From Alphaproteobacteria bacterium (GTDB taxonomy: Bacteria; Pseudomonadota; Alphaproteobacteria; JAEUKQ01): DNA of 34,184 nucleotides. Positions 1,896-34,098 of the stretch are shown here, in pieces. The translations under genes were made by a program, and so were the position numbers. Each line of letters opens with the position of its first letter. Position 1 is the stretch's first letter. The stretch spans positions 1-34,184 of the forward strand of contig JAEUKQ010000011.1 of assembly GCA_016794225.1 (NCBI GenBank), given 5' to 3'. The notes under the pieces are model-generated. The model searched no databases. It saw only the letters and a list, made by a program, of their open reading frames with translations, and was not told the DNA's origin.

Positions 1896-3293
1896 TTATG
1901 TATCTAGGTAGACAAGGCTTGTCATCATACCAGCCATCATATGATATAAATGGTGACAATGGAAAGCCCACTTGCCTGGGTTAAGCGCATCAAAAACGAT
2001 TTCAGCTTTCCCATGAACCGGCAACCAAATCGTATCCCGAACAGCGCCGCTGATCTTTTGATTATCAAGGGACACTACTTGAAAACGGTGGCCATGCACA
2101 TGAATCGGGTGTGACATGCTGGTATGATTTTCTAAACGTAATCGTACCCGCTGACCTAATTTAACATAAATAGGCAGTCCTGCCTTGCCCTGTTCATACA
2201 TTCCCCATTGATATCCTGTCCCTTCACCTAATACAACCTCTATGTCGCGGTCAATAGACCGATTGGGTAATGGTGTCATTGCTTGCAACTGACGCTCTAA
2301 ATTATTGTTCAGTTGTCGGGTACGCTGATTGGCCAGCATAGAGATTTTATTAATCTTTTGGCCTGATGTTGCTAAAATAAGGCCCGCTTGCTGATGCTCG
2401 CCCTCTCTTTTAGCCAATACAGGAAAAACACCCCCATGTTTTGGTATTGAAACAAGTACATCTAGCCGCTGGGCAATTGCAATATCTGGAGCAATAACAG
2501 ACACATTTTTTACGGGCACACCATCAACGGCAATCAATTTTGCCTGTAGCCCTGAAAAATCCATCACAAAGTTGGTTGTAGCAGCGGCATTAATAATGCG
2601 CAAAAGGATCGTTTCACCCGATTCAACATAAATAATATCTGGATCATCAAGGGTTTTTTGGTTTGTTAGAAACGCATCAGGCTCAAAATCATGGAGATGG
2701 CTTGTTGACACGCCCATCGACATACCAGCATGGTGGGCATGTTCATCATGTTTACCCCCGCGTAATTTTTCAAAAATCTCTACCGGATCAGCAAAAACGA
2801 AATCTTGCAAAAACAATATAATCTCGCGGTAAGCAGGTGTATTATTAGCTGGGTGTATGATTAGGGGGGCAGCCAAAAGTTTTTGTTCCTGCAGACCAAA
2901 ATGCGAATGCATCCAATGTGTGCCAGGTTCATCTATCATGAAATCATAAATAAACGAACTACCCGGTGCTAAAGCTGCTTGCGACAATTCGGGTACCCCA
3001 TCTTGATCTGACGGAGGAAGTAACCCATGCCAATGAATTAAAGTATGTTCCGTCAAAGCATTTTCTAACTGCACATAAAAACGTCCTGGCGCTTCAAAAG
3101 TTAAATCCTTATTACCTGGGCTTGTTAAAGCCATAATTTTTGCCGGCTTTTTATTAATTTCAATTATTTTATTTTCGGCTTTTAACAAAATTGGTTTCAA
3201 GTTGGGCGCCGATAATAATATTTTTGGCATTAGCCCGACCGCAGCTATTGCTACGCCGCCACTTAGAAATTGACGCCGTGTTGTTCGCTTCAT
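1896..3293 (-). CDS. Tat-exported multicopper oxidase (copper resistance type)
   Basis: A 465 aa protein with an N-terminal twin-arginine signal (TTRRQFLSGG then a hydrophobic stretch). It has the four copper-binding motifs of multicopper oxidases in order: HWHG near residue 86, HWMHSH near 124, HPIHVHGH near 393 and HCHHLYHMMAGM near 442. The last pair supplies the type 1, 2 and 3 copper ligands. The family (CueO, CopA/PcoA) oxidises Cu(I) in the periplasm. A His/Met-rich insert (EHAHHAGMSMG, about residue 185) may bind extra copper. A ribosome binding site AGGA lies about 8 nt upstream. It is second in an operon with copZ (18-nt gap), transcribed from the MerR-type promoter at 559-589 of the 3.5-kb region. 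Copper tolerance is a confident inference; CueO-like versus PcoA-like assignment is open. Confidence 0.92.
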   Translation of the reverse strand: MKRTTRRQFLSGGVAIAAVGLMPKILLSAPNLKPILLKAENKIIEINKKPAKIMALTSPGNKDLTFEAPGRFYVQLENALTEHTLIHWHGLLPPSDQDGVPELSQAALAPGSSFIYDFMIDEPGTHWMHSHFGLQEQKLLAAPLIIHPANNTPAYREIILFLQDFVFADPVEIFEKLRGGKHDEHAHHAGMSMGVSTSHLHDFEPDAFLTNQKTLDDPDIIYVESGETILLRIINAAATTNFVMDFSGLQAKLIAVDGVPVKNVSVIAPDIAIAQRLDVLVSIPKHGGVFPVLAKREGEHQQAGLILATSGQKINKISMLANQRTRQLNNNLERQLQAMTPLPNRSIDRDIEVVLGEGTGYQWGMYEQGKAGLPIYVKLGQRVRLRLENHTSMSHPIHVHGHRFQVVSLDNQKISGAVRDTIWLPVHGKAEIVFDALNPGKWAFHCHHLYHMMAGMMTSLVYLDT

Positions 3294-3311
3294 ATTCCCA
3301 ATCCTGGGGCA

Positions 3312-3512
3312 TTAAAATGTTGCTTCATAACCCGCATTTTTCAATTCATTCAACAGTTTTGGAGGCAACAGTTTCTCTAAAGAACGAATGGTTACCGTTT
3401 TTTTTGAAACATCAATAGTAATTGAGGCGTCCGGTTGATGTTTTTGAATAATCTGCCGTATGTGCCCTGCACAGGATTGGCAATGAATAGTTGGAATTTT
3501 AAGAATGAACAT
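3312..3512 (-). CDS. copZ: Copper chaperone, CopZ-like HMA domain protein
   Basis: A 66 aa single heavy-metal-associated domain. Its metal site is HCQSC near residues 10-14, the CxxC that binds Cu(I), and it ends in the usual GYEA segment. CopZ proteins carry Cu(I) in the cytoplasm to CopA or to the regulator. The first strand reads TIHCQSC instead of the common GMTC, a mild variation that keeps both cysteines. AGGGAAAA precedes the ATG. It is the first gene of the leftward copper operon, directly ahead of the multicopper oxidase and divergent from copA. Confidence 0.88.
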   Translation of the reverse strand: MFILKIPTIHCQSCAGHIRQIIQKHQPDASITIDVSKKTVTIRSLEKLLPPKLLNELKNAGYEATF

Positions 3513-3558
3513 CGACTTTTCCCTATATTATATTTGGTTTTGCACTTAACACACACTT

Positions 3559-3589
3559 AGTCTAGGCTATGCCCATAGGGTAAGGTCAA
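3559..3589 (-). promoter_or_regulatory. MerR/CueR-type promoter of the copZ-oxidase operon
   Basis: On the minus strand, -35 TTGACC (589-584 of the 3.5-kb region, i.e. 3589-3584) and -10 TAGACT (3564-3559) are separated by 19 bp, TTACCCTATGGGCATAGCC. The overlong 19-bp spacer with a central dyad is the hallmark of MerR-family activated promoters. The core TTACCCTATGGG is identical to that of the facing copA promoter. Confidence 0.8.
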
Positions 3590-3661
3590 GCAATATTGTC
3601 CACCATAACATCACAAACTTACCATGTAAAAATTAATAAGAAACTGCCCAACAGTTTTGTC

Positions 3662-3692
3662 TTGACATTACCCTATGGGGAAAGCTTATCAA
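3662..3692 (+). promoter_or_regulatory. MerR/CueR-type promoter of copA
   Basis: -35 TTGACA (3662-3667) and -10 TATCAA (3687-3692) are separated by a 19-bp spacer, TTACCCTATGGGGAAAGCT. It shares the 12-bp core TTACCCTATGGG with the divergent promoter of the copZ operon. It is probably bound and activated by the CueR-like protein encoded at 6250-6642. Confidence 0.82.
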
Positions 3693-3730
3693 TATTGAAG
3701 ATTATGTTTTGATGAGAATGGGGATAAAGA

Positions 3731-6205
3731 ATGAACAACCAGGTGCATAAACTTATTATTCCGATCGAAGGTATGACGTGTAATTCTTGTGTCAATCGGA
3801 TTGAACAAGCATTAAAACAAGTACCATTTGTTGATGCAGTCGCAGTGCACCTAAGTAATGGTAGTGCCCTGGTAAAAGGTTCTGAGCAACTAACCTCTAA
3901 ACCACTCGTTGATGCTGTTGCAAGCGCGGGGTATCAAGTACCACAAACGCAAACAAATATGCAATTTTCAAACACCGCAACGGACGCCCAATTAGAGAAA
4001 TTACTGCATAAGCTATCTGAAATGAAAAATATTGTTCATGTAGAAATGCAAAAACCCGAACGACAAATTAGACTAACACATCTGAAAAATTCTTTGGCTA
4101 TGACATCGATCGAACAACTTGTTCGAGAAATAGGACTTACCTTTACTGTCATTCCAGATTCTCCTAGCCATTCGCTTCAACAACGTCATCATCACAATAA
4201 TATAAATTCTGGACAGCATAAACACCTTGGGGAATTGGTAAATCACCAAGATCCACAATCACGGTTGGTTTTATTACTGGGTCAATGGCGTCTTATTTTG
4301 TCACTTGTATGTGCGGTAATCTTAAGCATCCCCATGCTCGGCATGATCATCGGCACCCATGTAGAAATTAATGGGTTTGTTCAGTTATCATTGGCAAGTT
4401 TTGTTCAGGTGTTTGGTGGCTACACTTTCTACCGCGACAGCTGGCGCGCCCTTCGGCATGGACATAGCACGATGGACACACTAGTTACACTGGGCACAAG
4501 TGCTGCTTATTTATTAAGCATGGTTCTTTTCCTAAAGTCCCCATCCGCAAATATACATTTATATTTTGAAACATCGGCCGTTGTAATTGCCTTGGTTCTA
4601 CTTGGCAAAAGACTTGAACAAAAAGCCTTGCGCAAAACAAACCAGGCTGTCAAGAGCTTGATGAATTTATGGCCACAGCAAGCCTATCTTGTTCAGGACG
4701 GACAGTTAATTGCTACTTCCCCAGATAAACTTCAACCCGGTGACCTGGTTCGTGTACGTCCATTTGAACGAATCCCAGCAGACGGCTTATTAAAAAGCTT
4801 AGAAGCAAGTATTGATGAATCATCAATTACCGGCGAAAGCACTCCTGTTATCAGAAAGTCGGGACAGCAAGTTGTTGGTGGATCAACCAATATGGGTGAT
4901 ATGATTGAAATACAAGTTACACACAGTAAAAACCATGGTTTTCTGGCACGCATGATTGCGTATGTAGAGCAAGCGCAAATGGAAAAACCACCAATTCAAC
5001 GTTTGGTTGATAAAATTAGTGCTATATTCGTGCCACTTGTTTTAGGGATTGCAACCCTAACTTTTGCAATCTGGTATTTAACTGGGCATCAATTTGCAGA
5101 GGCATCTTTGCATGCGATTGCGGTATTGGTTATTGCGTGTCCTTGTGCCCTTGGTCTTGCAACACCAACAGCATTAACAGCGGGTTTGGGAATTGCGGCA
5201 AGAAATGGCATCTTAATTAAAAATGCTGCCAGCTTGGAACAAGCAAAAAAAATTAAAGGGATCATTTTTGATAAAACTGGTACGTTAACACTTGGTAAAC
5301 CAACATTAACCCACATCATTACCAATCAACCTGAACAGGACATGATGCGCAAAATATATGCTGTGCAACGCCATAGCACGCATCCTCTGGCTCAGGCCGT
5401 TATTGATTGGGGACAGCAACATTTAACAGATACTGACAAAATTGAAACACCAAATGTTCAAGTCAAAATTGGTCTTGGCTTGGTTGGAGATTTTGGATCA
5501 TCCCGCTTTATCCTTGGGACAGACCAATTAATGAAGGAATATGGTGTAAAGCTTGATTCGCTGGGTCAAAAAGCCTTAAAACTTGAACAAGACGGCCATA
5601 CGGTGTCCTGGTTTGCACAGATAGCACCAATATCAAAGCTTTATGGCCTCATAGCTTTTATTGACCAATTACGTCCAAATGCCTTGGAAACCGTGCAAAG
5701 GTTAAAATCCAAAGGTTTTAAGATAAGTCTGCTTAGTGGTGATAATATATCGATTGTTCAGGCAACAGCCCAGAAATTAGGGATTGAACATGCAAGGGGG
5801 CGCGTTTTACCACAGAATAAAGCCGAAATTTTGACCCAACTACGTCAGCAATGGGGTGCAATAGCCATGATTGGTGATGGGGTAAATGATGCCCCAGCCC
5901 TTGCCAAAGCAGATTTAAGTATTGCAATGTCTGGCGCCAGTGATGTTGCCATTAACACTGCCGATATTACCTTACTGAACAATAACCCGACCTTGGTTGT
6001 ATCTGTCCTGCACCTAGCTGCTTTAACTGAGAAAAAAATATGGCAGAATTTATTTTGGGCTTTTATCTATAATATTATCGGTATTATATTGGCCGCAATT
6101 GGTTTACTAAGCCCAACTTTTGCAGGAATGGCTATGGCTTTTAGTAGTGTCAGCGTTATTACCAATGCGTTATTCCTGTATCGCTGGAAACCCGGCAAAT
6201 TATAA
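3731..6205 (+). CDS. copA: Copper-exporting P1B-type ATPase
   Basis: An 824 aa inner-membrane ATPase that exports Cu(I) from the cytoplasm. An N-terminal HMA domain carries GMTCNSC (residues 14-20). A second N-terminal segment (about 80-140) has HMA-like length but no CxxC, and is followed by a histidine-rich linker (RHHHNN...GQHKH, about 155-170). The catalytic landmarks are in order: TGES near 367, the CPC transmembrane motif (IACPCALG) near 471, the phosphorylation site DKTGTLT near 514, the HP motif (STHPLA) near 550 and GDGVNDAP near 715. Membrane helices flank these in the P1B arrangement. The gene is divergent from copZ, has a 19-bp-spacer promoter, and is followed 44 nt later by the CueR-like gene. 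A silver role is also possible. Confidence 0.95.
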   Translation: MNNQVHKLIIPIEGMTCNSCVNRIEQALKQVPFVDAVAVHLSNGSALVKGSEQLTSKPLVDAVASAGYQVPQTQTNMQFSNTATDAQLEKLLHKLSEMKNIVHVEMQKPERQIRLTHLKNSLAMTSIEQLVREIGLTFTVIPDSPSHSLQQRHHHNNINSGQHKHLGELVNHQDPQSRLVLLLGQWRLILSLVCAVILSIPMLGMIIGTHVEINGFVQLSLASFVQVFGGYTFYRDSWRALRHGHSTMDTLVTLGTSAAYLLSMVLFLKSPSANIHLYFETSAVVIALVLLGKRLEQKALRKTNQAVKSLMNLWPQQAYLVQDGQLIATSPDKLQPGDLVRVRPFERIPADGLLKSLEASIDESSITGESTPVIRKSGQQVVGGSTNMGDMIEIQVTHSKNHGFLARMIAYVEQAQMEKPPIQRLVDKISAIFVPLVLGIATLTFAIWYLTGHQFAEASLHAIAVLVIACPCALGLATPTALTAGLGIAARNGILIKNAASLEQAKKIKGIIFDKTGTLTLGKPTLTHIITNQPEQDMMRKIYAVQRHSTHPLAQAVIDWGQQHLTDTDKIETPNVQVKIGLGLVGDFGSSRFILGTDQLMKEYGVKLDSLGQKALKLEQDGHTVSWFAQIAPISKLYGLIAFIDQLRPNALETVQRLKSKGFKISLLSGDNISIVQATAQKLGIEHARGRVLPQNKAEILTQLRQQWGAIAMIGDGVNDAPALAKADLSIAMSGASDVAINTADITLLNNNPTLVVSVLHLAALTEKKIWQNLFWAFIYNIIGIILAAIGLLSPTFAGMAMAFSSVSVITNALFLYRWKPGKL

Positions 6206-6249
6206 AAAAATCAGCCAAACTTGGGAAATATACACCCTTGAGGGAAAAT

Positions 6250-6642
6250 ATGTTTAAGATTCATGAAGCGGCCAAATTAAGTGGTTTATCTAGCAAAATG
6301 ATTCGCAATTATGAGCGCCTTGGTCTTCTTAGGAATATTGCGCGTTCATCTAAGGATTACCGGCTATACCACGAGCACGACATACATAATTTGAAGTTTA
6401 TCCATCGCGCCCGCCAGTTAAATTTCCCGCTACAAACTATCAAAAAGTTATTAGCCTTATGGCAAAACTCAAGCCGCTTAAATAGTGAAGTACACAACAT
6501 AGCCAGCCAACATATAGCTGACATTCGCCAACAAATTCAACACCTTGAGTCAATTGCAGCCGTTCTTCAAAAGCTTGTTGATTGTTGCGGTGGCGAACAT
6601 CAACCTTCGTGCCCAATCCTTGAAGATCTTGCTAAAAATTAG
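6250..6642 (+). CDS. cueR: CueR/HmrR-like copper-responsive MerR regulator
   Basis: A 130 aa MerR-family regulator: winged helix at residues 1-70 (KIHEAAKLSGLSSKMIRNYERLGLL), a long dimerisation helix, and a C-terminal metal loop CCGGEHQPSCPI. C113 and C121 have the C-x7-C spacing of the Cu(I) site in CueR; C112 is extra. Where CueR has Ser77, alignment by eye puts Asn78, still not the Cys of divalent-metal sensors. The start at 6250 is chosen over a TTG at 6238 because GAGGGA (6240-6245) is well placed for it and the family begins M-x-I. It follows copA closely and probably controls both MerR-type promoters at 3559-3692. Its last 4 bp overlap the end of the converging EamA gene. Confidence 0.9.
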   Translation: MFKIHEAAKLSGLSSKMIRNYERLGLLRNIARSSKDYRLYHEHDIHNLKFIHRARQLNFPLQTIKKLLALWQNSSRLNSEVHNIASQHIADIRQQIQHLESIAAVLQKLVDCCGGEHQPSCPILEDLAKN

Positions 6643-33678: not shown

Positions 33679-34098
33679 TTACTGATCACAATTGGCAACA
33701 CATGTGGTATGAGGGATAACTTTGCCGCCACAGCCCGCAAAGCAAGAACGATATAAATCGTCGCATTGATCCTGACAGCTATTTTTAACATTGCTACACT
33801 GGAAGGAATTATAGAAACTATCTGGTGTTTTTACAATTTTTTGTCCTTTTGCACGTTGTTCCTCGGCATATGCATAATATTCATTTTGTGCTCTTAGGCG
33901 CTCGTTATATTCACACATTTGGACTTGTGAATTACAATTCTGCCGACAAAATTGCTGGTTTTGTGTGCACTGATTGGCACAAAAACGACCCTCCGTGCTT
34001 AGTGGCGGACGTAGTTCGTAGCTGGTCTCATAAATTGGACCACAAGCACTTATAATAAAAAAAGAAAATAAGGACAATAAAAAGCGTGATATACTCAT
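33679..34098 (-). CDS. Cysteine-rich lipoprotein with a mirror-symmetric Cys pattern
   Basis: A 139 aa protein. Residues 1-18 are a lipoprotein signal peptide ending in the lipobox ISAC, so Cys19 would be lipidated. Twelve more cysteines follow at 40, 44, 51, 55, 62, 101, 108, 112, 119, 123, 133 and 137. The first five are spaced 4-7-4-7 and the next five 7-4-7-4, an 11-residue helical repeat. Paired from outside in, each pair sums to 163. This fits an alpha-helical hairpin closed by five disulfides, with a Tyr/Glu/Gln/Lys-rich turn around residues 70-95. The last two form an extra CX3C. The protein would be anchored in the envelope facing the oxidising periplasm. I do not recognise the family or function. 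GGGA lies 6 nt before the ATG. Confidence 0.8.
   Translation of the reverse strand: MSISRFLLSLFSFFIISACGPIYETSYELRPPLSTEGRFCANQCTQNQQFCRQNCNSQVQMCEYNERLRAQNEYYAYAEEQRAKGQKIVKTPDSFYNSFQCSNVKNSCQDQCDDLYRSCFAGCGGKVIPHTTCVANCDQ

Follow-up and report, generated by a model that had tools for sequence, protein, structure and literature searches.

A cysteine-rich gene close to the end of an alphaproteobacterial contig (JAEUKQ010000011.1) raises the question of how the many cysteines of its product are joined to one another, and what a protein so built might do. The gene was analysed within a stretch of 34,184 nucleotides (the window); 86 bases of contig remain upstream of the start codon, and a Fer4/DUF3470 ferredoxin gene is the convergent neighbour. 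An earlier note on this DNA had placed a lipoprotein at 33679-34098 without giving a strand, and the open reading frame lies there on the minus strand (Table 1). The product of 139 residues begins with MSISRFLLSLFSFFIISAC-GP, in which the lipobox IISA-C19-GP is read directly, giving the window protein the signal peptide and lipobox cysteine of bacterial lipoproteins (Lgt/LspA substrates). Among 118 homologues, 105 show the lipobox motif with its cysteine in the corresponding position, and the residue after it is mostly G, A or S and never D. In E. coli, a residue other than D after the acylated cysteine favours the outer membrane; by that rule the outer membrane would be favoured here as well, and the protein would probably be anchored there via Cys19.

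Table 1. Features of the lipoprotein gene and its product, in window coordinates
Feature	Coordinates	Strand	Evidence
139-aa cysteine-rich lipoprotein gene, stop codon included	33679..34098	minus	ORF list; homologues across several phyla
Signal peptide with lipobox (IISA-C19), predicted acylated Cys19	34042..34098	minus	sequence read
N-terminal strand (predicted), residues 22-30	34009..34035	minus	AlphaFold2/DSSP E4-12 (mature numbering), pLDDT 95-98
Long helix 1 (predicted), residues 35-83, with Cys40, 44, 51, 55, 62	33850..33996	minus	AlphaFold2 H17-65
Helix 2 (predicted), residues 99-122, with Cys101, 108, 112, 119	33733..33804	minus	AlphaFold2 H81-104; co-loss with helix 1
C-terminal strand (predicted), residues 126-135, with Cys133	33694..33723	minus	AlphaFold2 E108-117

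The cysteines of the window protein are at positions 19, 40, 44, 51, 55, 62, 101, 108, 112, 119, 123, 133 and 137. Recounting these positions bore out the layout described earlier, namely spacings of 4-7-4-7 and 7-4-7-4, five pairs (40/123, 44/119, 51/112, 55/108 and 62/101) that each sum to 163, and two extra cysteines, 133 and 137, in the tail. With twelve cysteines placed at random, five mirror pairs arose in 0.03% of simulated trials; when two cysteine-rich helices were given random helical spacings, the share was 0.24%, so the mirror layout has little likelihood of being accidental.

Extent of the family and conservation of the cysteine layout

At least 118 non-redundant homologues were collected from Alpha- and Gammaproteobacteria, Campylobacterota, Aquificota, Desulfobacterota and others. 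A three-sequence profile detected the family in 13 of the 385 alphaproteobacterial genomes sampled, and further profile searches were positive for 12 of 397 genomes in a phylum-wide sample, 22 of 370 in another class of the same phylum and 7 of 150 in the phylum of member L067; within the single family that holds the Legionella-type sequence L175, the figure rose to 51 of 77 genomes, some with two copies. A DNA pattern for the conserved tail (C-x6-C-x3-CGG-x-V-x5-C-x3-C) had at least 119 matches in named genomes, including Legionella, Coxiellaceae, Halothiobacillus, Allochromatium, Azospirillum, Ehrlichia, Sulfurospirillum and other Campylobacterales, as well as Aquifex, Persephonella, Thermovibrio, Desulfocapsa and Bdellovibrionales. 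Some of the pattern matches (L022, L075 and L082 among them) were dropped as lying outside the family after their open reading frames had been read. The family thus has a wide but uneven distribution.

Nothing meaningful was found for the window protein in Pfam or NCBIfam; the matches to nec1 (E 0.12) and Defensin_big (E 5.4) were below the cut-off and absent in homologues. A Pfam scan of 76 members (43 short, 33 long) assigned no family and returned only single weak matches of coiled-coil type, and profile searches of PDB sequences were empty or insignificant. The phmmer match to ROP protein in the PDB (E 0.0006) was a short match to one helix of another protein, which vanished under profile search. 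A viral origin was rejected, as neither viral contigs nor phages gave a match. Since Pfam, NCBIfam and the PDB leave the family uncovered, it marks an annotation gap, and a literature search, which covered few subscription papers, found no description of it, so the protein family is apparently undescribed so far.

Several members depart from the common form. One Legionella-type family has a divergent second paralogue (L196, L190, L188 and L210-L214) with a helix-1 spacing of 4-7-4-4-3 and a single tail cysteine. Two adjacent members, in tandem duplication, were found in L104 (about 5242-6392) and on contig 132 of genome G860. One gene (L012:1516-1902) has a TAA codon immediately before the tail cysteine pair and so misses the tail bond, and the product of another (L002:1225-1914) is extended at its C-terminus by a segment similar to an Agenet/Tudor domain (E 1.6e-5, narrowly short of the cut-off), which is odd in a lipoprotein.

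The helix-1 cysteines stand at 0, 4, 11, 15 and 22 (spacing 4-7-4-7) in 76 of the 118 non-redundant members. Counted back from CGG, those of helix 2 are nearly always at 0, -4 and -11, the next at -15 or -13, and the last between -17 and -23. The full ten-cysteine mirror (4-7-4-7/7-4-7-4) was found in only 5 of 118 members, the window protein included, because the outermost helix-2 cysteine shifts (17-23 before CGG) and Cys108 stands at either -15 or -13; the 101-108 spacing varies among homologues, and the symmetry of the fifth pair is unconserved. The exact mirror claimed earlier therefore holds for the window protein and fails as a family rule. Exact symmetry is a chance feature of a few members, and what the family conserves is a fixed inner 4-7-4 core within a ladder whose staples number between three and five. 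In long-loop members from Campylobacterota (L067, L070 and L073) and Aquificota (L027 and L093), an extra cysteine pair appears together at -66 and -57 from CGG, and its place near the tip of the extended hairpin suggests a seventh bond.

Pairing of the cysteines by co-loss

A bonded cysteine is expected to vanish with its partner. Cys55 and Cys108 were both present in 80 of 118 members and both absent in 36 (L005, L006 and L010 among them); none kept Cys55 alone, and the two apparent exceptions (L031 and L042) are register errors from truncated sequences. Cys44 and Cys119 were both found in 117 members and both missing in the remaining one (L015). For the tail pair 133/137, 106 members had both, 10 neither and two only one, making the loss joint in 10 of 12 cases; the two members with a single tail cysteine (L188 and L190) have an additional helix-1 cysteine at +19, which restores an even total. 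The number of cysteines after the lipobox is even in 112 of 118 members, and the minimal member (L194) has only 40, 44 and 51 with 112, 119 and 123, which are the three innermost staples (40/123, 44/119 and 51/112). The pattern search demanded Cys112, 119, 123, 133 and 137, and at these positions only the 36 profile-found members are unbiased.

A tree built from 80 columns gives 11 changes at site 55 and 11 at site 108, and the supported branches hold one of these changes, a joint one; the number of independent 55/108 co-loss events is thus uncertain, and the lack of exceptions is certain. The pairs 40/123 and 51/112 are invariant across the family and so lie outside the reach of co-loss. Loss of single cysteines, named earlier as what would speak against the proposed pairing, was looked for and not seen, mirror pairs being lost instead, so that a disulfide pairing first proposed by inference has gained support from paired loss and even totals. 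In the aligned sequences, co-loss thus supports the mirror pairing itself, and we infer the disulfide chemistry.

Paired loss would equally suit metal sites of two cysteines each, and the thiols might instead stay reduced as a store or transfer site for a metal such as Cu(I), the mirror layout then providing paired two-coordinate sites. Copper storage proteins are four-helix bundles that form tetramers and bind Cu(I) by thiols, holding most of it within or between helices (PMC7558416), and a multicopper oxidase, an HMA P-type ATPase and a MerR regulator are encoded in the window, 27 kb away. The cysteine-rich helices resemble those of Csp1 and Csp3, of which Csp1 is exported; the family differs from both in its predicted two-helix hairpin (strand-helix-helix-strand) and its even, paired cysteines. 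The scanned members had no Pfam match, hence none to the copper storage family, and the predicted fold is not a four-helix bundle. Moreover, copper genes are absent among the recurrent neighbours of homologues, the signal is that of a lipoprotein rather than a Tat substrate, even cysteine totals would be unnecessary for metal binding, and an oxidising periplasm with DsbA and DsbB favours disulfides. A metal store is an unlikely reading, and a hairpin stapled by disulfides a very likely one.

Predicted fold and comparison with stapled hairpins

AlphaFold2, run on the window protein with 43 aligned family sequences, gave a model with a mean pLDDT of 97.2 and a pTM of 0.78. A short linker joins the predicted helices (35-83 and 99-122), Cys123 of the CGG motif directly follows helix 2, and Cys137 is just beyond the C-terminal strand. 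The model predicts, with high confidence, a helical hairpin whose base is closed by the two strands. A fold other than a hairpin, which would have contradicted the earlier proposal, was looked for and not seen in the prediction. A long Aquifex member was modelled similarly well (pLDDT 96.6), with a first helix of 86 residues. Searched against the PDB with Foldseek, the short and long models gave best E values of 0.058 and 0.16 with low TM-scores and nothing at E <= 0.001, and the short model had no fold match among viral models.

Helical hairpins stapled by disulfides typify the mitochondrial intermembrane space and, to our knowledge, are seldom discussed for bacteria. The family, which spans several bacterial phyla, is apparently a new variant of such hairpins; it has a larger number of staples, its inner core is conserved and its tip varies. 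As one scaffold bearing anywhere from three to seven predicted disulfides, it offers a natural ladder that may be useful for asking how DsbA/DsbB, together with an isomerase, sort many close cysteines correctly.

Two mitochondrial likenesses had been drawn earlier, to twin-CX3C and to twin-CX9C proteins, and both survive as analogies of principle. Oxidised small Tims have two helices with CX3C motifs and mirror disulfides C1-C4 and C2-C3 (PMC3759932), and the likeness lies in the mirror order of disulfides linking the CX3C motifs, the outer cysteines bonding to each other and likewise the inner ones. The window protein has two CX3C motifs per helix with mirror co-loss, yet five cysteines per helix, their pairing being predicted; the helices of the family would be joined by three to five staples, with a further bond in the tail, and the family differs again in being bacterial, with strands at its base and a lipid anchor. 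Whereas small Tims reside in the mitochondrial intermembrane space after Mia40 import, the window protein is encoded by a bacterial genome with DsbA/DsbB and has a lipobox. The small Tim profile in Pfam was unmatched by the 43 short and 33 long members, and no fold match was obtained, so that membership of the small Tims falls on profile, compartment and cysteine number. With CHCH (twin CX9C) proteins the family would share an antiparallel helical hairpin stapled by disulfides; its spacings of 4-7-4-7 and 7-4-7-4 in place of 10 (CX9C) and the lack of a Pfam match in any scanned member speak against membership. The long member bears a weak likeness to the adaptors HlyD and EmrA, which likewise combine a long helical hairpin with basal strands, although the Foldseek matches (E 0.16 and 0.60, TM about 0.31-0.35) were not significant and no sequence relation to the family was found. 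We know of no disulfide zipping in these periplasmic adaptors.

The resemblance to small Tims invites the view that the protein is a periplasmic holdase, its hairpins assembling, like the hexameric small Tims, into a tentacled ring that protects exported or outer-membrane proteins. Small Tims have a helix-loop-helix form with mirror disulfides and build rings with tentacles (PMC3759932), and the variable, sometimes aromatic-rich helix extensions of the family could serve as such tentacles; against this, solved structures offered neither a sequence nor a fold match, and the family's scattered occurrence, in 3-6% of the genomes sampled from each large group, ill suits a general chaperone. We regard such a chaperone as improbable. 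Slightly less probable still is that bacteria of several phyla arrived independently at a mirror-stapled hairpin with a small-Tim-like periplasmic job of holding or bridging exported proteins.

Possible role and gene neighbourhood

The best overall explanation, and a probable one, is a periplasmic lipoprotein whose disulfide-zipped hairpin may act as a structural stalk or adaptor; the stalk or adaptor role taken by itself is tentative. The mature part would run strand, helix, helix, strand, with the two helices antiparallel and bonded at 40-123, 44-119, 51-112, 55-108 and 62-101, and a sixth bond, 133-137, would close the tail. The host genome encodes both DsbA and DsbB, making oxidation after export feasible, and these enzymes would form the bonds. 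The product would be a rigid, protease-resistant rod that might keep the variable tip off the membrane; in other members helix 1 lengthens to almost 90 residues, and a further cysteine pair near the tip is present in the longest forms. No set of conserved polar residues suggestive of catalysis was found among the aligned members, and instead of being an enzyme the rod may be structural, serving a protein partner as stalk or adaptor.

Members in Legionella, Coxiellaceae and Ehrlichia, and the fact that small disulfide-rich proteins are often secreted, could point to a protein displayed on the surface or released to act outside the cell. The lipobox of most members argues otherwise, as do the many free-living members (Aquifex, Halothiobacillus, Sulfurospirillum) and the lack of a link to secretion genes among homologue neighbours, and we consider an action outside the cell very unlikely compared with a structural part in the periplasm.

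No common neighbour was found among the homologue loci, and none supports any role. Neighbours differ between lineages, being SBP_bac_5/permease genes in Halothiobacillus and Guyparkeria, SDR in Campylobacterales, AhcY in Coxiellaceae and pyruvate kinase or polyprenyl synthetase in alphaproteobacteria, and a functional operon partner was rejected on that account. The window itself contains, at 1896-6642, a likely copper-resistance cluster made up of the multicopper oxidase, the metal P-type ATPase with its HMA domain and the MerR regulator. In the Halothiobacillus/Guyparkeria loci (L031, L042, L115, L112, L049, L059, L094 and L121), the gene adjoins that of a family-5 solute-binding protein, a binding-protein-dependent permease gene, or both, and in at least two of them (L031 and L115) it lies between the solute-binding and permease genes, as if inserted in a peptide-transporter operon.
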